From contig NZ_VOOS01000007.1 of assembly GCF_007993035.1 (NCBI RefSeq), forward strand, positions 1-63,009: DNA of 63,009 nt, read 5' to 3'. The DNA is from Vicingus serpentipes. Lineage in GTDB: Bacteria; Bacteroidota; Bacteroidia; Flavobacteriales_E; Vicingaceae. Of the stretch, positions 28,981-48,189 are shown piece after piece. The first letter of the stretch is position 1. Every line of letters begins with the position of its first letter. Below the pieces are notes generated by a model. That model saw only the letters and a program-made list of their open reading frames with translations. It searched no databases and was not told where the DNA came from. Made by a program: the position numbers and the translations under genes.

Positions 28981-30612
28981 CTACCTTTTTATTATTTTTC
29001 TAGTATTTTGACCTATAGAAACGAAATATAAGCCTGATTTTAAATTAGAAATATCAATTTGAGCAACAAAACTACTTTCATACACCAATTGACCCGAGAT
29101 ATCATAAATACGAACAAAATCAACGTCCAATTGATTAATTTCAATTCTTAAAACGTCATTTACTGGATTTGGACTTAAATTAAAAGAATCAAACTCTTTA
29201 AAATCTTTTACCCCTGTAGTTAAACAATCTGTTAAATCCGGATTTAATTCGATTGGTAAGCCCGGAGTAAGATCCTTACCCGAAAAGGCTAAATAACTTG
29301 GCTCATACCTTAAAGCCCTAAATACATTTCTATTTCCAATAGGAATATCACCTTGTGACAAAATACCACCATTGGTTACAGGGCTCCAATACTCCCAAAC
29401 AATATCCTCATTAGTATCGATCTCGAACAATCTCGCATCTCTCCCTTGACAAATCAATGTATTACCATTTGGCAAACGCTGAGCTCCAGAAATATTAGGT
29501 GAATAAAAGTCTGTTGGATTTGGTGCTACATAACTCCATTCTGGAAAATCAGGTCCAAAAGTAGTATCAGCTTCCAATATATAATTACCAAAAGCATCAG
29601 TTAAAGGATCTATAATATCAATAGATGAATAGTTGCCTGCTGGACGACCATTTCCGTTATTGTAAATCATTATTTTACCTCCATCAACTAAAGAATCTGC
29701 AATCCATTGTACATTATGGTTACTATAATTAATGCGGTCTAAAGAGTCTCCATGATTATATGATTCTGGATTTCCATATCGGTATAAAATATCACCTCCC
29801 TTACCCATTAAACCTCCAGAACTCGAAGCAGCTTCGAGCGTACTTGTAGAATGATCTATAATAATGAATTCATTAAAAAAGTTTAAACTTAAAATTATTT
29901 GATCTAAATCAGCATTATAATCAATTGCATTAGCATGAGCCCAATCTGCTTTATTTTTAGGCGCATAATTCAAATTAAAGAGCTCAGGATGCTCTTCTAC
30001 AACACCAAAATTTGGTTTTGTATTGTCATAATCCTGAATTAAATGATCCCACATGTGCCATTCCCATACAATTTCTGCACTATCAAATCCAATAGGCTTA
30101 ATCTCAATTATTTTTTCAGGCCAAAGCGCATTTTCAGCTAACAAAGAAGTGTCTCTTCCTGCATCAATAGATTCCTGCTTTGTTTTTAATTCAAATGCAA
30201 TGGCTAAAATATTTCCGTTAGGTAATAATGCTACATCGTGATGTAAAGATTGCAATGTATCTGAATAAAAAAATTGCCAATTTAAATTTCCTTGCCAATC
30301 AAAAATTTCAAGTAAACCACCTCTTCCTCCGGCATTAAAAAAAGTTACTGGAGTTTTTCCACAACGAATCAACCCTCCATCATCTAATAAATAAACTGAA
30401 TTTCCAGCTCCATACTCACTGTTCCACTGATTTACGACTTGACCACAATTATCAATTAAATAGGTTATCGTGTCTCCAGTATATGCAAATAATGTATAAC
30501 CATCCTGAGCATCTAAGCTGTTGAAAATGGTACCGACTGTATTTTGAGATTTTAGCGATAAAACAGAACCAACTAAAAATGTTAACACAAAAAATATTTT
30601 CTTAATCTTCAT
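28981..30612 (-). CDS. Arylsulfotransferase-like beta-propeller protein with T9SS type A sorting domain
   Basis: 543 residues, signal peptide ending near LKSQ. The body follows the pattern of the arylsulfate sulfotransferase (ASST) family: repeated strands such as GGLLEIFDWQGNLNWQF, HHDVALLPNGNILAIAFE, DWAHANAIDYNADLDQIILS and GAQRLPNGNTLICQGRDARL. The last ~75 residues are a type A T9SS domain (FNLSPNPVNDVLRIEIN to KIIKR). Members of this fold in enterobacteria move sulfate between phenolic donors and acceptors in the periplasm; many Bacteroidota members carry the name without biochemical proof. Activity is therefore uncertain, export by T9SS is well supported. Confidence 0.8.
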   Translation of the reverse strand: MKIKKIFFVLTFLVGSVLSLKSQNTVGTIFNSLDAQDGYTLFAYTGDTITYLIDNCGQVVNQWNSEYGAGNSVYLLDDGGLIRCGKTPVTFFNAGGRGGLLEIFDWQGNLNWQFFYSDTLQSLHHDVALLPNGNILAIAFELKTKQESIDAGRDTSLLAENALWPEKIIEIKPIGFDSAEIVWEWHMWDHLIQDYDNTKPNFGVVEEHPELFNLNYAPKNKADWAHANAIDYNADLDQIILSLNFFNEFIIIDHSTSTLEAASSSGGLMGKGGDILYRYGNPESYNHGDSLDRINYSNHNVQWIADSLVDGGKIMIYNNGNGRPAGNYSSIDIIDPLTDAFGNYILEADTTFGPDFPEWSYVAPNPTDFYSPNISGAQRLPNGNTLICQGRDARLFEIDTNEDIVWEYWSPVTNGGILSQGDIPIGNRNVFRALRYEPSYLAFSGKDLTPGLPIELNPDLTDCLTTGVKDFKEFDSFNLSPNPVNDVLRIEINQLDVDFVRIYDISGQLVYESSFVAQIDISNLKSGLYFVSIGQNTRKIIKR

Positions 30613-33451: not shown

Positions 33452-35146
33452 TTATTGTACAACAATTTTACCGTTAGAAATTATTTCATTTTCTGAAACA
33501 ATTTGATAGTTGTATATACCTTGAGATAAATCACTAATATTTAAATTAAGATTATTAGTACCTTGATTAACAATAAGATTTTTCACAATAGCTCCTAATT
33601 GATTAGTAATTAGAATTGTTGAATTTTGCTTAGTATTTTCCTTAAAAGTAAATGTTAAATTATCTTTAGCTGGATTTGGATAAACCTTTACATTTGAATT
33701 ACCTATAAATTCGTTTACTGATGTTGGTAAATCAGATTTAGTAATATGTAATATCAAAAATGGTTCTTCAATTGTATTATCAATATATAGTGTTTTAGAA
33801 ACTGTATTATTTATTACAGGAGTAATCTCACCTGTAGATAAATCTTCTAATTCAAATTCATGATTTGGAAGAATATTTTCAAATCCATTTATTAACAACT
33901 CATAATCTCCACTAATTCCTACTTTAACTCTTACAGGTATAGAGATTGATTCTCCAACTCCTAATTGACTAATAGAATTAGAATATAAATCTTTACCATC
34001 ATTAGTAACTAATGAAAGACTTGGAACCTCCCATGGGTTAGGCGTAAACAACTTTATATTATCATAATCCTCATCATAAAACTCAGATGAATTTTCATCT
34101 TCATATAAATAAGCTTTATCGTAAAATGAATTTATATTTGAAAAGATATTTAACATAATAGCCTCATCAAAGGTTTTAAAATGACCTGTAGTAGCTGTAG
34201 TTTTTGCAGTTTGAGGAATTGTAACAGAAGCACCTCCCGATGAAGCTTTAACCCAAAATCCTTGACCAGATGCAATTTGTGAAGCAGTAACATAATTACC
34301 TCCAATAGATAAAACATATGGAGCACCTTTGGTAATATTTGATCTACTGCAAGACGCCCAATTAATTGTTGAAGGATATGGATTACCAAGTAAAACCCAT
34401 CCATCATCAGCACCACAAGAATAAGAACAATTTACATTCAATGTTACAGAATTAGCATTATTAGGTGCTCCAGTTACCGCTAGTGTTTGCGAAACACCAA
34501 GCTGATCAACATAAGTTAAATAACCTTTACCATTAGTAAGAGAACTAGCTGCATTATAACCATTATCTAAGGAACCAATTTCAGCTTCATTATAATCATA
34601 AACAGAAACAAAAACTCCACCTTGTGCAGCATCATCAAAACCAATTCCACTTGTATAAATGTCATCATCCCAGTCTGCAAGAGTTGAACCCACAACAGGA
34701 GGCGCTAATGTTCGCCATGTTGCAGGTGCTGTTAAATCAGTTTCTACAGTAAAATTACTTCCTGTAATTGTTCCTGTAGATGAATTTCCAAGAGAAGCTC
34801 CTGCAGGTAGGGTAACACCTCCCCCAGCTGTAGATACGTCAAGTGTAGCGCCACTTGTAACTATAAGAGTACCATTCACGGTTAAAAGACCTGAAGAAAT
34901 ACAACTTAGTTGAGCAGAAGCTCCGGTTACCGTCACATCATTTACTGTCTCAGTTGAATTAAGAAAAGCAGAAAATCCGGCTGGTATAATTACATTGTCT
35001 AAAGGCCCAGGAATTCCATCCGGATTCCAATTACCTGGTTGATTCCAAGCAGGAAAAAAACCACCATCATCCCAAATATAAGTTGTTTGTGAAAAACCAA
35101 TAGTAGTTAAAAACGCTAATGGTAAAAAAAGTAAATATTTTTTCAT
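33452..35146 (-). CDS. T9SS type A cargo protein, adhesin-like
   Basis: 564 residues, signal peptide ending at GFSQ. The N-terminal portion (WNPDGIPGPLDNVIIPAG, then short repeats with VTSGATLDVS) is typical of beta-helical or passenger-like surface proteins in Bacteroidota. The central part, GWVLLGNPYPSTINWAS followed by GQGFWVKASSG, matches a recurrent module of T9SS proteins. The last ~80 residues form a type A sorting domain (KVYPNPAKDNLTFTFKEN to NGKIVVQ). Surface exposure is well supported; binding partner is unknown. It is the gene directly downstream of the exosortase cassette, about 70 bases on, same strand. Confidence 0.82.
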   Translation of the reverse strand: MKKYLLFLPLAFLTTIGFSQTTYIWDDGGFFPAWNQPGNWNPDGIPGPLDNVIIPAGFSAFLNSTETVNDVTVTGASAQLSCISSGLLTVNGTLIVTSGATLDVSTAGGGVTLPAGASLGNSSTGTITGSNFTVETDLTAPATWRTLAPPVVGSTLADWDDDIYTSGIGFDDAAQGGVFVSVYDYNEAEIGSLDNGYNAASSLTNGKGYLTYVDQLGVSQTLAVTGAPNNANSVTLNVNCSYSCGADDGWVLLGNPYPSTINWASCSRSNITKGAPYVLSIGGNYVTASQIASGQGFWVKASSGGASVTIPQTAKTTATTGHFKTFDEAIMLNIFSNINSFYDKAYLYEDENSSEFYDEDYDNIKLFTPNPWEVPSLSLVTNDGKDLYSNSISQLGVGESISIPVRVKVGISGDYELLINGFENILPNHEFELEDLSTGEITPVINNTVSKTLYIDNTIEEPFLILHITKSDLPTSVNEFIGNSNVKVYPNPAKDNLTFTFKENTKQNSTILITNQLGAIVKNLIVNQGTNNLNLNISDLSQGIYNYQIVSENEIISNGKIVVQ

Positions 35147-35216: not shown

Positions 35217-35480
35217 CTATAAATCAGCCTTTTTATCTTTAGATATATCGTAAGTTTTTTTACCCCCATAAGCTACACCAGCTAAAAGAAGTAAACTTAA
35301 ACCTCCATCAATTGGCACGCATGGAGGAGGCCAACAACCTGGTCCACCACCACCTCCTGGAGGGCCTGGAGGACCTGCAGCTTGAATATCAAGACTAAAA
35401 AAAGATACTAACAATAGTAATAGTATCGTGTAGGCATTCTTTTTTATAAATTCTTTTATTTTCATAATGATTGCAAACAT
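35217..35480 (-). CDS. Mini-substrate of an exosortase: PIDGG-type C-terminal sorting signal protein
   Basis: 87 residues (82 if the Met at residue 6 is the start). A signal peptide occupies about 11-34. A Gly/Pro-rich stretch (GPPGPPGGGGGPG), then C49-W-PPP-C54, leads into PIDGG (56-60), a hydrophobic segment LSLLLLAGVAYGG and a basic tail starting KKTY. Motif, membrane segment and basic residues at the C-terminus are the tripartite plan of exosortase substrates; PID is the variant I know from Bacteroidota as PID-CTERM. Only about 20 residues lie between signal-peptide cleavage and the sorting signal, so the processed product would be a tiny Cys-containing peptide. The gene follows the exosortase and its partner by 64 bases on the same strand. 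Confidence 0.82.
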   Translation of the reverse strand: MFAIIMKIKEFIKKNAYTILLLLLVSFFSLDIQAAGPPGPPGGGGGPGCWPPPCVPIDGGLSLLLLAGVAYGGKKTYDISKDKKADL

Positions 35481-35544
35481 AAATAATTTTTTTCTATTTA
35501 TTAATCTAAATACGATTAAAAAACTAAAAGGGTTGGTTAAAAAA

Positions 35545-36015
35545 TTATTCTATTACTTTTTCTTTAAAATAAACTACAATAAAAACTAAAAAACAAAGCA
35601 AAGGAGATTGTGGTAAACCTATTAAATAACGTGTTATTGGATAGGTACTTTCTATAATGTTGAATAATAATCCGACAGCATAAAACACTATTGCGACTAT
35701 GCATATTAACCCGTAAATAGAAACAACTAACTTAAAATATTTTTGGGTACTAAAATAGATTTGAACAACTAATATGGTTAATAGCATTAAAACCGCAGAA
35801 AATAAAAATGTCAACCCCCATTTTAGGGTTATTAAAAAAGAGTGGGATAATTGGTTTAAAAAATCTGGTGCTTGAATGTAAAAAACATTATAGGGATATG
35901 GTTCTCCATTAATTACACTATTGATAACCAAAAAAAAGATTTCTCTATAATAGCCAACAAAAAAAATCAACAACAACAAAGCTGTTAGCAGTATTGGTTT
36001 TTTAACTTTTTTCAT
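35545..36015 (-). CDS. Exosortase-associated small membrane protein
   Basis: 156 residues with four to five hydrophobic membrane segments, starting MKKVKKPILLTALLLLIFFV and ending in a short basic tail. It overlaps the exosortase gene by 14 bases and reads in the same direction. In Flavobacteriia, exosortases are often followed by a small multi-pass protein of this kind (annotated as exosortase F system-associated protein), and the length and a periplasmic loop with PYPYNVFYIQAP fit that description. I cannot confirm membership without a profile search. Likely role: partner or regulator of the exosortase in the inner membrane. Confidence 0.75.
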   Translation of the reverse strand: MKKVKKPILLTALLLLIFFVGYYREIFFLVINSVINGEPYPYNVFYIQAPDFLNQLSHSFLITLKWGLTFLFSAVLMLLTILVVQIYFSTQKYFKLVVSIYGLICIVAIVFYAVGLLFNIIESTYPITRYLIGLPQSPLLCFLVFIVVYFKEKVIE

Positions 36016-36553
36016 TTTTAGTTGAATTGCTTTTTGTTGCGAACTTTTTAACCCACAAAACCCACATCAAAAAAATACATGCGTAAACAATAATGGTAAA
36101 AGTATATTTATGGTTAAACGCTAAACTATCACTATCATAAACTACAATTAGAGCTAAACCAACTAACCTTAATATATTAAGTACATGTACAACTAAAATT
36201 CCTAATGGAATATAAATTAGCTTATGTAAAATTTTGCCAGGGAAAACAATTATAAACCCTGCAAACAATGCAAATAAACTTAAGCCATTACAAGGTACAC
36301 CAATTAATACTCCATGAGTTCCATCTACCCCAACTGCATCGGCATAAGTAAAAGTAGTATATCCTAAAAACATTAAAACACTGTCAGTAGCTGCAACCAA
36401 TTGATCTATTAATAAATGATCTACATAACCACTGGTAACCAACCAATTATCATAAACTAAATACCATAAAAGATATAAACCAACTGCTTTCAATACAAAT
36501 AGAGCGATAAATTTGTCTGATGGAGAAATGTTATTTATTATTTTTTTAATCAA
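36002..36553 (-). CDS. Exosortase family transpeptidase
   Basis: 183 residues with about five to six membrane segments. The catalytic triad is complete: Cys88 in GVPCNGLSLFALFAGF, Arg129 in LNILRLVGL and His148 in LAFNHKYTF. The order C, R, H and the spacing within three successive helices are diagnostic for the exosortase/archaeosortase fold, and the length matches the short Bacteroidota type (XrtF or XrtX class) rather than the longer proteobacterial EpsH. It would recognise the C-terminal PIDGG signal, cut it, and join the protein to an unknown acceptor. It is the first gene of the leftward cassette and divergent from the polysaccharide operon. Confidence 0.88.
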   Translation of the reverse strand: MIKKIINNISPSDKFIALFVLKAVGLYLLWYLVYDNWLVTSGYVDHLLIDQLVAATDSVLMFLGYTTFTYADAVGVDGTHGVLIGVPCNGLSLFALFAGFIIVFPGKILHKLIYIPLGILVVHVLNILRLVGLALIVVYDSDSLAFNHKYTFTIIVYACIFLMWVLWVKKFATKSNSTKNEKS

Positions 36554-36771: not shown

Positions 36772-39105
36772 ATGAGTACTACCGAAAATTTTGGATTGAA
36801 TATAGAGCAAATTAAAGTTTACTTCTTTAAAGGATTAAGGTATTGGTACGTTTTACTTATAGCTCTTATAATTGGCATTTCTATAGGGTTTTATAAAGCA
36901 CGATATAATATTTCAACCTATGAGGTTTCTGGTAGGGTTTTATTAAAGGATGAATGGAAAGGAGCTGGTGCTGATGCTTTTTTACCAGGGATGGAAATTG
37001 TGAATGAACGTAACCGATTAGCCAATGAAATTGGGATTATTAAATCCTTCCCATTGATGACGGATATGGTGAAATCTTTACCTGAATTAAAAGTCAACTA
37101 TTTTGAGATTGGTAATGTGAGGGAAACTAACATCTATAAAAGTGCTCCATTTAAATGTAGTATAGATAGTATTACCGATAAATCAATATACGACCGTCTT
37201 TTTTGGATTAAATACCTTAGTAAAGATCGCTTCCTCATTTCGATGGATGATTTTAACACTGACGAAGGTATTGAACATACATTTGGAACCCCCATTAAAT
37301 TAATTAATAATAATGTACTTATTGAACAAAAAACTTTTTATGATGACATCATTGAAAAGAAATTCAAATTCTCTTTTAACGATACAGAAGCTCTTGCAAA
37401 ATATTACCAAGAAGCAACTAATATAACAGTTGATATTGATAATGCTTCTTCTATACTTGTAGTGTCACTTAATGGCTCTCCATACCATCAACAAATAGAT
37501 GTCGTAAATGCAATAATGAAAAGTTTTATTACTTATGGCATTAACGAGGGTAATGAAACTGCTATAAACACTCTAAATTTTGTAGATGAGCAATTAAAGA
37601 TTGTTGCTAATTCATTGACTCTAGTAGAACAAAACCTTAAAAACTTTAAAGAAAGTGCAAACGACAAAAGAGTAAACATTAACGGCGAAAATATTATCCA
37701 ACAAATTACTAAACTGGAACAAGAAAAGTTAGAATATCAATTTACGATTGATTTTTCTAAAAAAACCATCGATTATATCAAAAACAATGATGATGCTAAA
37801 GGTATTGTAATACCCTACTTTATTAATAGGTCCAATGTGCTTTATGATCTGATGGTAACCCTAATTGATAAATACAACAAACGAGAATCCTTAAAATTTT
37901 CAGTACATGATAATAGTACTCAAATGATTCAACTTTTGAATGAAATTAAAATATCAAAATCTATACTTATAGAAAATTTAATCTCATTAAAAAATAAAAC
38001 TGAGAATGATTATTCGATTGTAAATCAACAACTAAACTTTTTAATTACTAAGATTAAAGATATTCCTTCAGTGGAAAAAGATTATACTATTGCTTATCGA
38101 AATTATCTTATACAAGATAAATTGTATACTTATTTATTAGAAAAGAAACAAGAAGCAGAAATTGCTAAAGCATCAAACATTGCTAAAGCTAGTATTCTTG
38201 ATTATGCTAACCTATATAGGGTTTCTAAAACAAGTCCAAGTAACGCAAGTATCTACCAAAAATATATTATTCTATTTTTTATTTTGGGAATTATAGTTAT
38301 TGTAATTCTCGAATTAATTAATAATAAAATTATTGATAAATCTGATATCGAAAGAATCACAAACCTTCCTATTTTAGGCTACATTGGGCACAACAAAGAA
38401 AATGATAATTTATTGTTATTTAACAGCCCTAAATCGTTAATTGCGGAAGCATTTAGATCTATACGAACAAATTTGCAATATATGGTTAATCAAAACCAAA
38501 GTAAAGTTATTATGCTTACCTCTTCAGTTAGTGGTGAAGGAAAAACGTTTTGCTCAATGAACATTTCATCATCATACGCTTTGTTGGATAAAAAAACAAT
38601 TTTAATTGGAGCTGATTTACGTAAACCACGTATTTATGATGATTTTGGATTAAGTAATGCAATTGGATTAAGTACTTTATTAATTGGAAACACACCACTA
38701 ATTGACGCCATTCAAAAAACGAATAATCCTTTTTTAGACATCATTACTTCTGGTCCTATCCCCCCTAACCCCTCTGAATTATTAGCTTCCGAGGCTTTTT
38801 CAATTTTAATAAATGATTTAAAAAATAAATACGATACCATTGTGATTGATACTTCCCCAATTGGTTTGGTTACTGATGCTCGAATTTTAATTGATATAGC
38901 AGATGTGGTATTGTTGATTATTAGACAAAAAGTCACCACTTTCCCCAATCTTTCAAAAGTAACCAAAGAACTAGGGGGACACAAGCAAAAATGTGGAATT
39001 GTAATTAACGATATTCTGCAAAAAAGAATTGGGTATGGTAGTTATGGTTATGGTTATGGTTATGGTTATGGTTATGGAGAATATCATGACGAAAGTGAAA
39101 ATTAA
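36772..39105 (+). CDS. wzc: Wzc-type polysaccharide co-polymerase/tyrosine autokinase with Tyr-Gly tail
   Basis: 777 residues. The Wzz domain starts with a cytoplasmic N-terminus and a first membrane segment around 28-47, followed by a periplasmic coiled-coil region and the second membrane segment (FFILGIIVIVILELI) near 500-520. The BY-kinase domain has Walker A TSSVSGEGKT (583-592), Walker A' ILIGADLRKPR, and Walker B TIVIDTSPIGL. The C-terminus is a Tyr-rich cluster, GYGSYGYGYGYGYGYGEY, with eight tyrosines for autophosphorylation. Family role: control of chain length and export of Wzy-dependent polysaccharides. The tail is encoded by six hexanucleotide copies. The gene overlaps the downstream aminotransferase start by 20 bases. 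Confidence 0.92.
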   Translation: MSTTENFGLNIEQIKVYFFKGLRYWYVLLIALIIGISIGFYKARYNISTYEVSGRVLLKDEWKGAGADAFLPGMEIVNERNRLANEIGIIKSFPLMTDMVKSLPELKVNYFEIGNVRETNIYKSAPFKCSIDSITDKSIYDRLFWIKYLSKDRFLISMDDFNTDEGIEHTFGTPIKLINNNVLIEQKTFYDDIIEKKFKFSFNDTEALAKYYQEATNITVDIDNASSILVVSLNGSPYHQQIDVVNAIMKSFITYGINEGNETAINTLNFVDEQLKIVANSLTLVEQNLKNFKESANDKRVNINGENIIQQITKLEQEKLEYQFTIDFSKKTIDYIKNNDDAKGIVIPYFINRSNVLYDLMVTLIDKYNKRESLKFSVHDNSTQMIQLLNEIKISKSILIENLISLKNKTENDYSIVNQQLNFLITKIKDIPSVEKDYTIAYRNYLIQDKLYTYLLEKKQEAEIAKASNIAKASILDYANLYRVSKTSPSNASIYQKYIILFFILGIIVIVILELINNKIIDKSDIERITNLPILGYIGHNKENDNLLLFNSPKSLIAEAFRSIRTNLQYMVNQNQSKVIMLTSSVSGEGKTFCSMNISSSYALLDKKTILIGADLRKPRIYDDFGLSNAIGLSTLLIGNTPLIDAIQKTNNPFLDIITSGPIPPNPSELLASEAFSILINDLKNKYDTIVIDTSPIGLVTDARILIDIADVVLLIIRQKVTTFPNLSKVTKELGGHKQKCGIVINDILQKRIGYGSYGYGYGYGYGYGEYHDESEN
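39042..39077 (+). repeat. Hexanucleotide tandem repeat (TTATGG x6) encoding the kinase tyrosine tail
   Basis: Six uninterrupted copies of TTATGG, read in frame as Tyr-Gly repeats at the end of the Wzc-type kinase. Because the unit is six bases, gain or loss of copies would change the number of tyrosines without shifting frame. The repeat also lies just before the start of the next gene. Confidence 0.9.
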
Positions 39106-40226: not shown

Positions 40227-41660
40227 GTGCTAAAAAAAGGAATCTTATGGGATTTTATTGGTAAATTCTTTAAACAAGGGATAGGTTTTATTATTTCTAT
40301 TTTTTTAGCACGGTTACTTACTCCTGAAGATTTTGGTTTAGTTGGAATGGTGATGGCTTTTGTTGCTATAGCTCAAATTTTTGTTGATATGGGCTTTGGT
40401 ACAGCTTTAGTTCAAAGAGAAAAAGTTGAAGAAATTCACTTTAGCTCAGTTTTTTGGTTAAACATTTCCATTGCTCTAATCATTACCCTAACATTTTTTT
40501 GGGGAGCCGAACTAATTGCTGATTTTTATCATAGAGAGGAATTAATTCCTATTGTTAAAGTAATGTCTTTACTTTTTATCATCTATTCTTTAGGAATCGT
40601 TAACCGCAGCCAATTACTAAGAAACATGGACTTTAAAAGTCTATCCATAATTAACGTATTTGCAACGCTAATTTCAGGTATTGTTGGTGTCGGAATGGCA
40701 TTAACAGGTTATGGTGTGTGGGCTATCATTATTCAGAGTTTATTGAGTGGTGTAGTTACCTTAAGCTTGCTTTGGCTTAGAACAAAATGGATTCCTTCAT
40801 TTATTTGGAGTTTAGATGCACTAAAGCCATTATGGAACTTTGGATACAAATTATTTATTAGTGGAGTTATACAGCGCATCTTTGATAGATTAGATGTTTT
40901 TATTATTGGAAAAATGTTTACTCCATCAGATTTAGGTTTCTTTACACGTTCAAAATCACTCAACCAATTAGTGGTTGATTATTCTTCTGGTAGCATTTCT
41001 TCTGTTTTGTTTCCTGCATTAAGTAAAAAACAAAATGATCCGGATCAAATAAAAACGATTGTTGTAAAAGCACTTCAAGTAGTTGGTGGAGCAGCATTTC
41101 TAATCAGTGGTTTATTGTTTATCTCTGCCGAAGAAATTATTGTGTTTTTGTTTACCGATAAATGGTTACCAGCAGTTCCTTATTTTAAAATATTACTATT
41201 AAGTACTTATGCTTACCCTTTAAATGCGATAATCATGAGCCCCATACAAAGCTTAGGCAGAACAGATGTCGTCCTGAAACTTCAATTAATGAAAAAATCC
41301 GTTTTATTATCTGGATTTATTATTGGCTTTATCTGGGGGATTAACGGTTACCTATATAGTTTAACAATAGTTTACATTATCAATTTATTATTAAATTCAT
41401 ATTTTTTAAACAAGCTTATTATTTTACCCAAAAGTAAACTAACTATAGAATTAATTAAACAAGCCATTTCAACTATTATTTCGGCTTATATTATACTGCA
41501 TTTTCATTCATATTTTTCGGAAATTCTATTTTTAAGAATAATAATTAACTCTACTTTTTTTAGTGTGCTTTTTTTGCTAATTAATTACATATTCAAAACT
41601 CATTTTATTAAGTTTGTTTTGAATACAATTGTTCAACTTTACTCGAAATATAAACAATGA
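40227..41660 (+). CDS. Wzx-type polysaccharide flippase
   Basis: 477 residues from a GTG start. Around twelve to fourteen hydrophobic membrane helices span the protein, with the N-terminal region IGKFFKQGIGFIISIFLARL, LLTPEDFGLVGMVMAF and IFVDMGFGTALVQRE typical of the polysaccharide transporter (PST) branch of the MOP superfamily. It flips undecaprenyl-linked repeat units across the inner membrane. The gene is four bases downstream of the aminotransferase stop and overlaps the next gene by four bases, firmly placing it in the operon. Confidence 0.9.
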   Translation: MLKKGILWDFIGKFFKQGIGFIISIFLARLLTPEDFGLVGMVMAFVAIAQIFVDMGFGTALVQREKVEEIHFSSVFWLNISIALIITLTFFWGAELIADFYHREELIPIVKVMSLLFIIYSLGIVNRSQLLRNMDFKSLSIINVFATLISGIVGVGMALTGYGVWAIIIQSLLSGVVTLSLLWLRTKWIPSFIWSLDALKPLWNFGYKLFISGVIQRIFDRLDVFIIGKMFTPSDLGFFTRSKSLNQLVVDYSSGSISSVLFPALSKKQNDPDQIKTIVVKALQVVGGAAFLISGLLFISAEEIIVFLFTDKWLPAVPYFKILLLSTYAYPLNAIIMSPIQSLGRTDVVLKLQLMKKSVLLSGFIIGFIWGINGYLYSLTIVYIINLLLNSYFLNKLIILPKSKLTIELIKQAISTIISAYIILHFHSYFSEILFLRIIINSTFFSVLFLLINYIFKTHFIKFVLNTIVQLYSKYKQ

Positions 41661-42313
41661 CGTTGCCTTTTTTTAAAAATAAAATATTTTGTATCTCCTA
41701 TCAACGGACTGGGACAACATCTACAGGACAATTTTTTAAAGACCACGGATATAAAGTTGCCACATGGGGAATTTCCAACAGTAACAAGTGGTCTTTAAGT
41801 TGGTTAAAAGGCGATTATGAGAAAATTTTCAAATCTTTCCATTTCAAAAAGCATCAAGTTTTTGAAGATGGACCTTGGTGGTGTAATGATTTTTATAAAG
41901 TGTTGTTTCATCGTTTTCCAAAATCAAAATTTATTTTGTTAGAAAGAAACCCTGATAAATGGTTTGATTCGATGCTTTCTCACTCCAATGGAAAGACGCT
42001 AGGTAACACTCACTTGCATTCCATTTTATACAATAGAGAATTAGATTTCCACAACTTAGGAAAAAAACTTGCCTATTACTCGGGTGAGATTGATAATTTA
42101 TTACCACTTCAAGAAAAACATAGAGAACATTATAAAAATATTTATATTACTAGAATAAATGAAATAAAAATGTTTTTTGAAATTCATAATCCTGATCGAT
42201 TATTTTTTGGAAGCCTAGAAGACAAGCAAGTGTGGAATAAAATAGGTGTTTTTTTTAACATTCCTGTTAAGGAAAATTACAATTCACATGCAAACAAAAC
42301 TAAAAGTAAATAA
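41657..42313 (+). CDS. Sulfotransferase (first of three)
   Basis: 218 residues. The PAPS 5'-phosphosulfate-binding loop is SYQRTGTTSTGQFF (14-27), and the 3'-phosphate-binding region is FILLERNPDKWFDSM with Arg and Ser. The protein is shorter than most carbohydrate sulfotransferases but has the expected central strand order. It transfers sulfate from PAPS to a hydroxyl, most likely on the sugar chain. Shares four bases with the upstream flippase gene. Confidence 0.85.
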   Translation: MTLPFFKNKIFCISYQRTGTTSTGQFFKDHGYKVATWGISNSNKWSLSWLKGDYEKIFKSFHFKKHQVFEDGPWWCNDFYKVLFHRFPKSKFILLERNPDKWFDSMLSHSNGKTLGNTHLHSILYNRELDFHNLGKKLAYYSGEIDNLLPLQEKHREHYKNIYITRINEIKMFFEIHNPDRLFFGSLEDKQVWNKIGVFFNIPVKENYNSHANKTKSK

Positions 42314-43027: not shown

Positions 43028-43840
43028 ATGAAACGAATAGCTATTCATAGTGTTCCTCGTTCTGGTTCTACATGGTTGGGTGAGATTTTTAATAGTCATC
43101 CTAAGGTGTCATACAAATATCAACCATTATTTTCTTATGCTTTTAAAAATAGACTGACTCCTAATTCAAGCCTACAAGATATTTCTCTTTTTTATAATGA
43201 AATAAATCTATCTAAAGATTCTTTTATAAATCAAGATGAAGCAAGAGAAATTAAAAGAGTAGCTAAATTTCATAAATCAAATGTAGCTGAATACACCGTT
43301 TACAAAGAAGTAAGGTATCACTATATATTAGAGAATTTATTAAACAAAGATAAAGACATTAGAATTATAGGCTTAATAAGGAATCCTTTAGCAGTAATTA
43401 ATTCATGGTTAAATGCTCCAAAAGAATTTAGGAAAGAATTAGGCTGGGATGAAATGGAAGAATGGCGTTTCGCTTCAAAAAAAAATAACAATCAACCAGA
43501 GGAATTTAATGGATTTGAAAAATGGAAAGAAGTCGCGAATTTATTTCAAAAATTAGAAAAAGACTACCCCTCACAATTTAGAATAATATCATATTCCCAA
43601 TTAATTAAAGAGACCGAAATAACAATTGATGAAATCTTTACTTTTTGTGATATAAAACTTTCAGAAACTACTAAACAATTTATTTTTCAAAGCAAAAACA
43701 ATAATAACAATGATCCTTATAGTGTGTTTAAAATAAAAAAAGATGATGATCAATGGAAAAAGACACTGAATAATATAATTGTTAAAGAAATAATTTCTGA
43801 TTTAAAGAATACACCTTTAGAGAAATACCTAACAGAATGA
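43028..43840 (+). CDS. Sulfotransferase (second of three)
   Basis: 270 residues. The phosphosulfate loop is HSVPRSGSTWLGEIF (7-21) and the 3'-phosphate motif is IIGLIRNPLAVINSWL, with Arg and Ser in the positions typical of sulfotransferase_1/3 proteins. Downstream, ISYSQLIKE is a usual conserved block. Its 3' end overlaps the third sulfotransferase by four bases. Likely an O-sulfation enzyme acting on the polysaccharide precursor in the cytoplasm. Confidence 0.85.
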   Translation: MKRIAIHSVPRSGSTWLGEIFNSHPKVSYKYQPLFSYAFKNRLTPNSSLQDISLFYNEINLSKDSFINQDEAREIKRVAKFHKSNVAEYTVYKEVRYHYILENLLNKDKDIRIIGLIRNPLAVINSWLNAPKEFRKELGWDEMEEWRFASKKNNNQPEEFNGFEKWKEVANLFQKLEKDYPSQFRIISYSQLIKETEITIDEIFTFCDIKLSETTKQFIFQSKNNNNNDPYSVFKIKKDDDQWKKTLNNIIVKEIISDLKNTPLEKYLTE

Positions 43841-44823
43841 GATTAGATTTTTTAATAAGTTCAGAAAGATCGGGCAGTAATCTAATTACAAAATTAATAG
43901 ATACACATTCATTATACATAGGCCCTTCACCAGTACATTTAATTAGATCATTTGCTTTAAGCATGCCTAAATATGGTAGCTTATCCAACAATAAAAATTG
44001 GGACACATTTATTGTTGATATTTATGATTTCTTTAATTTTAAAATTGGTATTTGGAATTCTTCTTTTTCCTTTGATGAACTTTTAGACATAAATGATAGA
44101 AGCCTTGAAGGGGTTATAAATTATCTTTATGCTAAAGAAGCAAAATCTTTTAATAAAAATTATGTATTCGTTAAAGAAGTTAAAACTTATTTATTTTATG
44201 ATTTCATAAAAAAAAAATTTAACAACGCTAAATTTATCTGGTTAATTAGAGATCCGAGAGATGTTGCTTCATCATGGAGTAAATCACCAGTCCACAGAGG
44301 AGATATTGTTAGAGGATCAAATGTTTGGAAAGAAGACCAATTAAAAACAATGTCTCTTTACAAAGAATTAATACATTCAAATCAAATATTGCTTGTAAAA
44401 TATGAAGATTTAATAACTAATCAAGCTGAAGTTACAAAAAGTATCTGTTCATTTTTAGAAGTAGAATATGAACCTACTATGATAAATTTTCATCAAAATA
44501 AATTAGCTTCTAAAAATGCTATACAGACTGATAATTGGAAAAATTTAAATCGTAAAATTATCACCACTAATCATAAAAAGTATCTAAAAAGCTTATCTAA
44601 AAAACAAATACAGTACATTGAGTATTTATGTAGAGAAGAGATGAAATATTTTGATTACAAAAATGAGTATCCAATAATAACAGAAATTGAATTTAATAAA
44701 TTAAGTGATGCTTTAAATAAAGAAGAACGTTTTGAAAAGAAAGAATATCAATTAATTGATGCTAAAGAAAAACAAAAACGAGAAATTTGGCAACGAAAGT
44801 TTTTCGAGATAACAAGTAAATAA
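43837..44823 (+). CDS. Sulfotransferase (third of three)
   Basis: 328 residues. Phosphosulfate loop ISSERSGSNLITKLID (7-22); 3'-phosphate motif FIWLIRDPRDVASSWS, a near-perfect R-D-P-R-D-x-x-x-S pattern; later LLVKYEDLITNQ, the family's third conserved block. A Lys-rich C-terminal tail of ~60 residues extends beyond the core. It differs enough from its neighbour to suggest a separate acceptor position rather than a recent duplication. Overlapping start with the preceding gene. Confidence 0.88.
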   Translation: MRLDFLISSERSGSNLITKLIDTHSLYIGPSPVHLIRSFALSMPKYGSLSNNKNWDTFIVDIYDFFNFKIGIWNSSFSFDELLDINDRSLEGVINYLYAKEAKSFNKNYVFVKEVKTYLFYDFIKKKFNNAKFIWLIRDPRDVASSWSKSPVHRGDIVRGSNVWKEDQLKTMSLYKELIHSNQILLVKYEDLITNQAEVTKSICSFLEVEYEPTMINFHQNKLASKNAIQTDNWKNLNRKIITTNHKKYLKSLSKKQIQYIEYLCREEMKYFDYKNEYPIITEIEFNKLSDALNKEERFEKKEYQLIDAKEKQKREIWQRKFFEITSK

Positions 44824-45831: not shown

Positions 45832-47280
45832 ATGCTATTTAACTCAATAGATTTTGCTATCTTTTTACCAATAGTTTTTATACTCTATTGGTTCGTTTTT
45901 TCTAAAAACCTAAAACTACAAAATCTATTAATTGTATTTGCAAGCTACTTGTTTTATGGTTGGTGGGATTGGCGTTTTTTATCACTCATTCTCTTTAGTA
46001 CACTTATTGATTATACTGTAGGTCACCAACTCAAAAAAGAAGAAAACAAGACAAAGAGAAAACTATTGTTATGGAGTAGCATACTCATTAACTTAGGTTT
46101 TTTAGGCTTCTTTAAATATTATAATTTCTTTCTTGAAAATTTCATTACAGCATTTTCATTTTTTGGTTCAGAGATAAATGCTAGGACACTAAATATCATT
46201 TTACCGGTTGGAATTAGTTTTTATACTTTTCAGACATTAAGTTATACCATAGATGTCTATAAAAGAAAATTAGACCCAACTAAAGATTTAATTGCCTTTA
46301 CAGCTTTTGTTAGTTTTTTTCCTCAATTAGTTGCTGGGCCTATTGAACGTGCATCAAATCTTCTACCACAATTTTATCAAAAACGTACTTTTGACTACTC
46401 AAAAGCAATTATAGGTTTAAGACAAATACTTTGGGGATTATTCAAAAAAATTGTAATTGCAGATAATTGCGCAGAATATGCAAACCTCTTTTTCAACAAT
46501 ACCGAAGCCTATGGTGGTAGCTCTTTATTATTAGGTGCTATATTTTTCACATTCCAAATCTATGGCGATTTTTCTGGTTACTCAGATATCGCAATTGGTA
46601 CATCTCGATTATTTGGGTTCAATTTAATGCAAAATTTTGCTTTTCCTTATTTCTCAAGAGATATTGCAGAATTCTGGAGGCGTTGGCACATTTCCTTATC
46701 AACATGGTTTAGAGATTATCTATACATCCCTTTGGGTGGGAGTAAAGGCGGTACTTGGATGAAAGTACGTAATACATTTATAATTTTCTTAGTTAGTGGC
46801 TTTTGGCATGGTGCAAATTGGACTTTCATTATTTGGGGTGCCTTAAATGCAATTTACTTTTTACCGCTTTTGCTATTAAATAAAAATAGAAATAATCTTG
46901 ATGCTATTCCAACGAAAAAACGATTCCCTTCATTTAAGGAATTTATAAATATTAGCCTCACCTTCCTATTAACAGTATTTGCATGGATATTCTTTCGTTC
47001 AGAAAATGTTAATCATGCATTTTTGTACATATCAAAAATATTTTCAAAATCATTTTTTACAAACCCTAATATTATAGAAACTAAAGGTATGCTTACAACA
47101 ATAAGTTTGATCATTATTTTTGTAATTATAGAGTGGGCTGGTAAAAGTGAACAATTTGCATTAGAGAAATTTGGCTCAAAATGGCATAAGTCATTACAAT
47201 GGTCATTTTACTATCTTTTGGTATTCATTATTTTATATTTTGGCGGTAAAGAACAAGAGTTTATCTATTTTCAATTTTAA
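45832..47280 (+). CDS. MBOAT family membrane-bound O-acyltransferase
   Basis: 482 residues with around ten to twelve membrane segments. The catalytic His is H326 in VSGFWHGANWTFIIWG, and the upstream conserved regions are GPIERASNLLPQF and AEFWRRWHISLSTWFRDYLY. This is the AlgI/DltB-like branch that carries acyl groups across the membrane. It stands two bases after the glycosyltransferase gene and three bases before an SGNH-like partner, the arrangement known for AlgI with AlgJ/X. It likely acetylates or otherwise acylates the polysaccharide in the periplasm. Confidence 0.92.
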   Translation: MLFNSIDFAIFLPIVFILYWFVFSKNLKLQNLLIVFASYLFYGWWDWRFLSLILFSTLIDYTVGHQLKKEENKTKRKLLLWSSILINLGFLGFFKYYNFFLENFITAFSFFGSEINARTLNIILPVGISFYTFQTLSYTIDVYKRKLDPTKDLIAFTAFVSFFPQLVAGPIERASNLLPQFYQKRTFDYSKAIIGLRQILWGLFKKIVIADNCAEYANLFFNNTEAYGGSSLLLGAIFFTFQIYGDFSGYSDIAIGTSRLFGFNLMQNFAFPYFSRDIAEFWRRWHISLSTWFRDYLYIPLGGSKGGTWMKVRNTFIIFLVSGFWHGANWTFIIWGALNAIYFLPLLLLNKNRNNLDAIPTKKRFPSFKEFINISLTFLLTVFAWIFFRSENVNHAFLYISKIFSKSFFTNPNIIETKGMLTTISLIIIFVIIEWAGKSEQFALEKFGSKWHKSLQWSFYYLLVFIILYFGGKEQEFIYFQF

Positions 47281-47283
47281 ATA

Positions 47284-48189
47284 ATGAAAAAATTTATTTT
47301 TAAATCTATATTATTTGTTACTCCAATTATTGTTTGTTTCATCATCTTTGAAACATTAATCAGAAAAATACCGAATGATTATAATTATAAAAATGAGTAT
47401 TTGACAATCAATTCTAATAAAATAAATAACCTTTTCTTGGGCAGCTCACACACCTATTATGGTGTTAATCCAGATTTCATTAAATCAAACAGCTTTAATG
47501 CTAGCCATATTTCTCAAAGTTTAGATACTGATTTTAAAATCATCAATAAATTTCAATTTTGGGATAGCTTAAAAACTATTATTATACCAATTGATTATTT
47601 CAGTTTATTTATTAGTATTGAAACAAGTAAAGAAGCTTGGAGAATAAAAAATTACATACTTTATTATGATTTTTATAAATCAAATCAAATATCAAATCAT
47701 TCAGAAGTTTTAAGTGTTAATTTAAAAAGTAACATTAATAGGATTTACTCCTATTACCTTAAAAATAATTCAAGTATTACTTGTAATAAAAAAGGTTTTG
47801 GAAATGTTAAAAAACCACAACTCAACCTTAAAGAAACTGGAAAAACTGCAGCAAATAGGCATACTAAAAAAGATTTGACATTATACTTTAAAAACATTAA
47901 AATAATTCAAGACATTATTAATCTAGCAAATAAAAAAAATATAAAAATTCTTTTTTACACTAGTCCTTCATATAAAACATATGTTTCTAATTTGAATGAA
48001 GATCAACTTAATCTTACAATAAAAACAGCCGAAAATTTAGCTCTTAAGAACAAAAACTGTAGTTATCACAACTTGCTATCAGATAAAAACTTTATAGCCT
48101 CTGACTATAGAGATGCGGACCATTTAAATGAAAGTGGTGCCAAAAAATTATCTCTAAAATTAGATAGCATAATACAAGAATTGCAATAA
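47284..48189 (+). CDS. SGNH-like partner protein of the MBOAT acyltransferase
   Basis: 301 residues with one N-terminal membrane anchor (about 5-25). The block I-like motif is FLGSSHTYYG, with S55 the probable nucleophile, and the block V motif is D-A-D279-H280-L-N in RDADHLNESGAKKLS, so both a Ser and an Asp/His pair are present. This is the layout of periplasmic DltD/AlgX-type acyl transferases that receive the acyl group from an MBOAT. The middle is poorly conserved and rich in Lys/Asn. I infer a two-component acyl transfer system with the preceding gene. Confidence 0.75.
   Translation: MKKFIFKSILFVTPIIVCFIIFETLIRKIPNDYNYKNEYLTINSNKINNLFLGSSHTYYGVNPDFIKSNSFNASHISQSLDTDFKIINKFQFWDSLKTIIIPIDYFSLFISIETSKEAWRIKNYILYYDFYKSNQISNHSEVLSVNLKSNINRIYSYYLKNNSSITCNKKGFGNVKKPQLNLKETGKTAANRHTKKDLTLYFKNIKIIQDIINLANKKNIKILFYTSPSYKTYVSNLNEDQLNLTIKTAENLALKNKNCSYHNLLSDKNFIASDYRDADHLNESGAKKLSLKLDSIIQELQ

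Follow-up and report, generated by a model that had tools for sequence, protein, structure and literature searches.

The exosortase locus of Vicingus serpentipes raises the question of what a sorting enzyme of Bacteroidota does with a neighbouring substrate of only 87 residues, and which other surface components this substrate serves. The window, i.e., the whole stretch of 63,009 nucleotides that was analysed, had been described in a sequence-only reading as containing an exosortase, an overlapping multi-pass protein and an 87-aa protein, and all three open reading frames are present on the minus strand. The first product (36002..36553, minus strand, 183 aa, TTG start) scores 202.8 bits in an NCBIfam profile search with NF046081 (exosort_XrtX, cut-off 170) and 74.5 bits with the XrtF model TIGR04128, below its cut-off of 90, so that the enzyme is exosortase X (XrtX), related to XrtF but not a member of that family. 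The intact triad Cys88/Arg129/His148 claimed for it was verified residue by residue, and a check for its loss in relatives found it invariant in 42/42 aligned sequences, window included. The AlphaFold model (mean pLDDT 93.4) contains five longer helices, at residues 11-41, 43-62, 91-103, 108-139, and 141-172, and predicts a multi-pass membrane fold; PDB relatives of XrtX were sought by sequence and by fold with no significant match. XrtX is the sole exosortase match found in its own genome and is 63-68% identical to its nearest named relatives, which are Flavobacteriales such as Vicingus.

The second gene (35545..36015, minus strand, 156 aa) overlaps xrtX by 14 bases, and its product matches NF046082 (assoc_w_XrtX) over nearly the full length with E 5.5e-13 and 48.9 bits, under the cut-off of 75; by this comparison it is a homologue of the family and not a certified member. 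The AlphaFold model of this putative multi-pass membrane protein (mean pLDDT 91.6) is all helical, and the best match in a PDB fold search (E 6.5) was not significant. An alignment of XrtX retrieved 179 relatives from the genomes collected, and the 80 best loci were retained; together with the window they form the set of 81 in which the BLAST cluster of the partner gene was seen 54 times, and in 45 of the best 80 the partner lies directly downstream of xrtX. The third product (35217..35480, minus strand, 87 aa) is a PID-CTERM mini-protein, hereafter mini, with a signal peptide, a Gly/Pro-rich segment containing CWPPPC, a PIDGG motif, a hydrophobic helix, and a basic tail; it scores 41.9 bits with NF046080 (PID_CTERM, cut-off 26) over residues 55-77, and the motif, helix and basic tail of that family are all there. 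The profile comparison proposed by the sequence-only reading thus holds over cut-off for XrtX and the mini, the two main members of the exosortase X/PID-CTERM system, and below the curated cut-off for the partner. Judged by these profiles the trio is of a known kind, all three families being already in NCBIfam. Viral contigs, phages, plasmids and Rfam were searched for the cassette and gave nothing informative; promoter-like sites in the window region were fewer than in shuffled sequence, and a terminator scan listed one weak site, inside the partner gene.

The cassette had also been presented as self-contained and its substrate as dedicated, and neither description can be kept. A count of other PIDGG-tailed proteins in the same genome, suggested with that claim, was carried out and found one more mini, a Gly-rich protein of 80 aa without Cys that scores 38.9 bits (G000:C5:56130-56198; L002 1360-1602; L331 around 10130). 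This second mini is the last gene behind a suf-type iron-sulfur operon, without an adjoining gene of the Type IX secretion system (T9SS), which counts against a role of the minis in the service of T9SS. At the window cassette such a gene does adjoin: 70 bases behind the mini, on the same strand, lies the gene of a 564-aa T9SS cargo (33452..35146, minus strand), which the sequence-only reading missed. In the phylum survey no other neighbour of dispersed PID mini-genes recurs as regularly as a T9SS cargo. Its C-terminal sorting domain (CTD) scores 39.5 bits with TIGR04183 (cut-off 23) and 50.8 bits with PF18962, which makes it a type A cargo of the kind handled in T9SS type A sorting and PorU attachment, and the CTD is preceded by a RemZ-type domain of about 340 aa (33737..34786, minus strand, profile A6). 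A stem-loop followed by a T run was seen by eye in the gap behind the cargo gene, before glyA; the terminator scan did not list it.

The regularity of this neighbour was measured in a survey of 296 genomes of the phylum, with a threshold of E 1e-10 for an XrtX-profile match. Such a match is present in 90/296 genomes, 37 of them over the cut-off; the matches below it are probably in part XrtF or XrtY. PID minis occur in 49/296 genomes (48 over cut-off), and all 49 are among the 90, compared with 0/206 genomes without an XrtX-profile match (Fisher p 2e-31, a value to be read with the relatedness of genomes in mind, since related genomes are not independent); the complete co-occurrence, 49/49, bears out the assignment of these proteins to PID-CTERM. 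From 140 PID matches, 134 in the 48 other genomes were examined, the two of the own genome and four at contig starts being left out, and their neighbours were searched with a T9SS CTD profile made from 27 of 30 sequences picked with TIGR04183 (excluding L315 and L321, which lie beside minis, and the misplaced L309). A T9SS CTD is present in the first upstream same-strand neighbour in 103/117 cases, equal to 103/134 minis, in 38 of the 48 genomes, with a median gap from cargo to mini of 74 bases. Control positions on the same strand are much poorer in CTDs (first downstream 15/82, second upstream 15/73, second downstream 2/62), and genes on the opposite strand have none (0/138). In eight genomes, 32-130 T9SS type A matches were counted per genome, which would lead one to expect a CTD on a few per cent of genes by chance. 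In a Pfam check of ten paired cargos, Por_Secre_tail matched all ten, nine over its cut-off, and the front parts of sampled cargos differ, including, where named, ice-binding-like, FG-GAP, lamin-tail and autotransporter-type repeats. The arrangement is also found close to home: 9 of 10 minis fetched from the own family (9 genomes) stand behind a domain-bearing cargo, and some of these pairs are separated from xrtX by kilobases or lie on a different contig.

The pairing is not universal and not evenly spread. Among the 31 minis without an upstream T9SS gene, 7 show the order of the window, with such a gene next downstream on the same strand (at 3.4 kb in one case), and for 24/134 minis no T9SS gene is the first same-strand neighbour on either side, which counts against a T9SS role. 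By family the paired counts are 70/78 (f24), 8/9 (f51), 8/14 (f22), 7/9 (f10), 4/6 (f43), 3/6 (f3), 1/6 (f5), 1/3 (f44), 1/1 (f2), 0/1 (f8) and 0/1 (f9); most pairs come from one family, because f24 supplies 70/103, and this was counted on the same side.

The paired cargos share more than the sorting signal. Profile A6 was made from 12 pre-CTD regions of XrtX loci and of the own family, i.e., from loci other than the paired cargos tested, and it finds the domain just before the CTD in 98/103 mini-paired cargos, compared with 35/419 other genes neighbouring minis, a figure that includes the cargos of tandem pairs. T9SS proteins without a mini within 6 kb carry it in 3/27 cases; this control began as 30 sequences picked by score, 6 with the domain, from which L308, L315 and L321, all with the domain, were dropped for lying less than 6 kb from a mini, and the remaining 27 include the misplaced 39-aa piece L309 and some other short sequences. 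Counted by genome, a domain cargo lies no more than 2.6 kb from 6/6, 4/4, 9/9, 3/4, and 6/6 of the minis examined. The possibility that the region is a generic T9SS part was rejected on the 3/27 controls and on the own genome, where the pre-CTD region of the window cargo was found once among 79 TIGR04183 matches. There is no Pfam family for the domain, and NCBIfam gave one marginal match among the 12 members; its one clear PDB relative by sequence is RemZ of Flavobacterium johnsoniae, residues 658-1024 (E 1.3e-21), in whose structure only the CTD is described as well resolved in the parts of PMC10994853 consulted. Because RemZ of F. johnsoniae carries it, the domain is confined neither to XrtX systems nor to PID pairs. 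Cargos that have the domain but no mini are common, and one genome (G115) has 14 domain genes for 6 minis, a further point against a T9SS role.

The adjacency of a tiny-peptide gene and a secreted-protein gene suggests that two surface-attachment pathways work together. The reading favoured here, by a modest balance of probability, is that the XrtX/PID-CTERM system works with T9SS: XrtX would cut the mini, and the peptide, attached to an acceptor, would serve the co-encoded cargo, a service that the gene pairing points to. According to the standing exosortase model, substrates are exported, cut at a C-terminal signal and transferred, and cleavage and transfer by XrtX are proposed by analogy with this model and that of T9SS. 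The mini would be exported by Sec and lose its signal peptide, with the C-terminal helix keeping it in the inner membrane; Cys88 of XrtX would cut at or near PIDGG, and the new C-terminus would be passed to an amine-bearing acceptor, probably a lipid or a sugar of the neighbouring polysaccharide pathway. The product would be a peptide rich in Pro and Gly, some 12-25 residues long and held at its C-terminus; at the surface it may be the short tether, or the docking peptide, of the T9SS cargo encoded with it. After removal of the CTD the RemZ-type domain would be the C-terminal part of the mature cargo and might be the part contacted.

The genes around xrtX itself lend themselves to another explanation. 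Minis in the XrtX loci were found by a purpose-made motif rule and not by the NCBIfam model; among the best 80 of 179 relatives, 67/80 loci have one, and 62 of the 69 minis lie directly upstream of the exosortase gene, so that the adjacency on which the sequence-only reading depended proved to be conserved. In the same 80 loci the order T9SS cargo, mini, exosortase is found for 24/69 minis, 6/69 follow a T9SS gene without preceding the exosortase, 1/69 is in neither position, and 38/69 are directly before xrtX without a T9SS gene in front, which counts against a T9SS role. A frequent frame is a divergent Wzc-like gene followed by (cargo,) mini, exosortase, partner and glyA, from which the window deviates in having mini and cargo after the partner. 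In the window the Wzc-like chain-length/tyrosine autokinase (36772..39105, plus strand; TIGR01007 172.7 bits, cut-off 108) is the first gene of a divergent polysaccharide operon; its BLAST cluster occurs in 49/81 loci (window and best 80 of 179), it is divergent within 6 kb in 39/60 loci having at least 6 kb upstream (from the best 80 of 179), and in a second set of 19 loci polysaccharide-type genes were recognised beside xrtX in at least 7/19 (cluster labels and by eye). These neighbours, together with the 38 minis that precede xrtX with no T9SS gene in front, speak for the classical exosortase role, in which the mini-peptide would be attached to the neighbouring exopolysaccharide or help to assemble or export it, the T9SS neighbour being a second surface factor of the same programme. 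The dispersed minis, mostly behind T9SS cargo genes, fit this explanation poorly and the domain match in 98/103 paired cargos is left unexplained by it, so that it is considered rather unlikely. As minor features of these loci, glyA is found in 43/81 (window and best 80 of 179), and the neighbouring polysaccharide genes switch between a Wzx-type flippase, as in the window, and ABC-transporter-type clusters in 28 loci of the series L067-L146 (BLAST cluster labels and by eye).

The polysaccharide operon carries three sulfotransferase genes (41657-42313, 43028-43840, and 43837-44823), and the sequence-only reading had connected the cassette with a sulfated glycan. The exopolysaccharide neighbourhood stands, with the Wzc-like gene divergent as counted above; the link to sulfate does not. 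In the survey of co-occurrence that had been proposed, at least one of the three sulfotransferases of the window has a homologue within 10 kb in 9/81 loci, window included (best 80 of 179), a count that covers these three families up to 10 kb; no regular co-occurrence was seen, and a system specific to sulfated glycan was rejected. Two further genes or gene pairs were recorded in this part of the window: an arylsulfotransferase-like protein with a T9SS tail of its own (28981-30612), near the cassette and the sulfotransferase-bearing operon, and an O-acetylation-type pair (45832-48189) formed by an MBOAT acyltransferase and, after it, a protein with a weak DUF1574 match, below the Pfam cut-off.

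The minis themselves bear on the remaining explanations. Nearly all are tiny (133/134 frames of at most 160 aa, the exception being one frame of 965 aa), and each PID-bearing genome has 1-9 of them. With mature lengths estimated by a simple purpose-made cleavage rule, hence approximate, the median segment before PID measures 12 residues for minis paired with T9SS genes and 20 for those of the XrtX loci (best 80 of 179). Tiny size and co-encoding directly behind the cargo, at the median gap already given, would suit a cargo-specific assistant, that is, a periplasmic factor, bound to the membrane and cleared by XrtX, that chaperones the T9SS protein or sets its timing; yet the short peptide segments are very alike between minis behind different cargos, e.g., QPGLPSAPSQAPIDGG, although the parts before the cargo domain differ widely, and the assistant is therefore judged improbable. 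A secreted capped peptide signal, pheromone-like and released by XrtX, would agree with the short estimated mature length and with the Gln context present at the likely cleavage site in 102/134 minis. Exosortase models provide for attachment and not release of the substrate, and up to nine minis per genome, mostly beside surface-protein genes, are hard to bring together with such a signal, which leaves it with a very small probability.

The favoured T9SS reading has to accommodate the same features. The CxPPxC pattern is present in 36/69 minis of the XrtX loci and a CGGPFPPC-type pattern in 18/69 (best 80 of 179), whereas the mature part lacks Cys in 97/100 parsed minis paired with T9SS genes; the peptide is for this reason not one conserved ligand, which counts against a T9SS role, and a disulfide of the Cys pair was rejected as a general mechanism. 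A reactive-Asp role of the PID aspartate, similar to an isopeptide tag, was likewise rejected, since several minis read PIGSG or PLGGL. According to the Q-rule of Bacteroidetes, as set out in the parts of PMC5837995 and PMC10653852 consulted, a Gln at the likely cleavage site would become pyroglutamate, making a link through the N-terminal amine unlikely for the minis concerned, another consideration against the favoured reading. The peptides QPGLPSAPSQAPID and CWPPPC may be regarded as candidate ligands of the RemZ-type domain. As a side observation, L185, L188 and L190 hold longer PID frames (131-137 aa) with a Cys-bearing stretch first and then a second likely signal peptide.

A related exosortase with a genetic phenotype is XrtF of F. 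johnsoniae, the model of which the window enzyme approaches without joining it; its partner gene adjoins xrtF by locus number in the parts of the source consulted. The colonization screen reported there (PMC10936215) yielded xrtF and its partner gene alongside porV, porU, porZ and sprA, and in every entry of the colonization table the xrtF and partner deletions equal the porU and porZ deletions; the passages on the screen draw no connection between exosortase and T9SS. The phenotype shared with T9SS genes is not specific, because the table gives the Fjoh_0334 and Fjoh_0651 mutants entries identical to those of the xrtF deletion. In its consulted parts the same paper leaves the XrtF substrates to future work and describes Fjoh_0651 as a small hypothetical gene complemented by a 434-bp fragment with promoter; if exosortases of this group make peptide tethers, Fjoh_0651 could be a candidate XrtF substrate.

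Further candidates came from a profile of four minis, which has matches in 21/23 exosortase-bearing genomes of one family, 4 of the 21 having supplied the profile, and in 0/11 genomes without an XrtX-profile match, five of these 11 being from other families. Most matches in the XrtF-like genomes (L352-L380) combine a stretch rich in Pro with a PID-like motif, a helix, Lys residues and a basic tail, and these tiny PID-like proteins are candidate XrtF substrates. False, cytochrome-like matches were found in G225 (L371) and G209 (L376), both of which keep other mini-like matches, that of G225 at E 0.002, and the only match in G173 is partial, though mini-like, at E 0.003; support in G173 and G225 is weak. 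In the 29 candidate loci of 3 kb, a RemZ-domain frame was present in 3 and a recognised T9SS CTD in 0.

Extended in this way, Bacteroidota exosortases would be a branch of Type IX surface display. Capped micro-tethers, conjugated at the C-terminus and made by XrtX and by extension by XrtF, would hold T9SS adhesins that have a RemZ-type domain at the surface of the polysaccharide or of the outer membrane, and this anchor of two pathways would have about one peptide gene for each paired cargo; this wider proposal is put forward tentatively, its probability being placed short of even. The system resembles PEP-CTERM/exosortase A (EpsH) in the tripartite C-terminal signal, the exosortase and the polysaccharide neighbourhood. 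PEP-CTERM cargos are usually large and many per genome, in contrast to the one to nine minis of PID-bearing genomes. A shared chemistry through VimA and the FemAB family of PEP-CTERM systems is a speculation of PMC7468200, as far as the consulted parts go. Among the matches listed in searches of the published literature on PID-CTERM, exosortases, XrtX and T9SS with exosortase, seen in part, neither the T9SS pairing nor the cargo domain was found, and the consulted parts of the T9SS literature on sorting and PorU attachment described no T9SS cargo gene coupled with the gene of an exosortase substrate. Taken alone, the cassette adds a new member to families already known; exosortase microproteins paired with T9SS cargos that carry a RemZ domain were not encountered in the literature searched. 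The role and the substrates of Bacteroidota exosortases are the matter to which the pairing contributes, as it ties exosortase substrates to Type IX secretion, offers a concrete cargo domain and yields candidate XrtF substrates; the question can be reduced to deletions and mass spectrometry. One locus of the collection, L178 (G303:C22), contains a second exosortase-like gene with one in-frame TAA, behind a T9SS cargo and a PID mini of its own.
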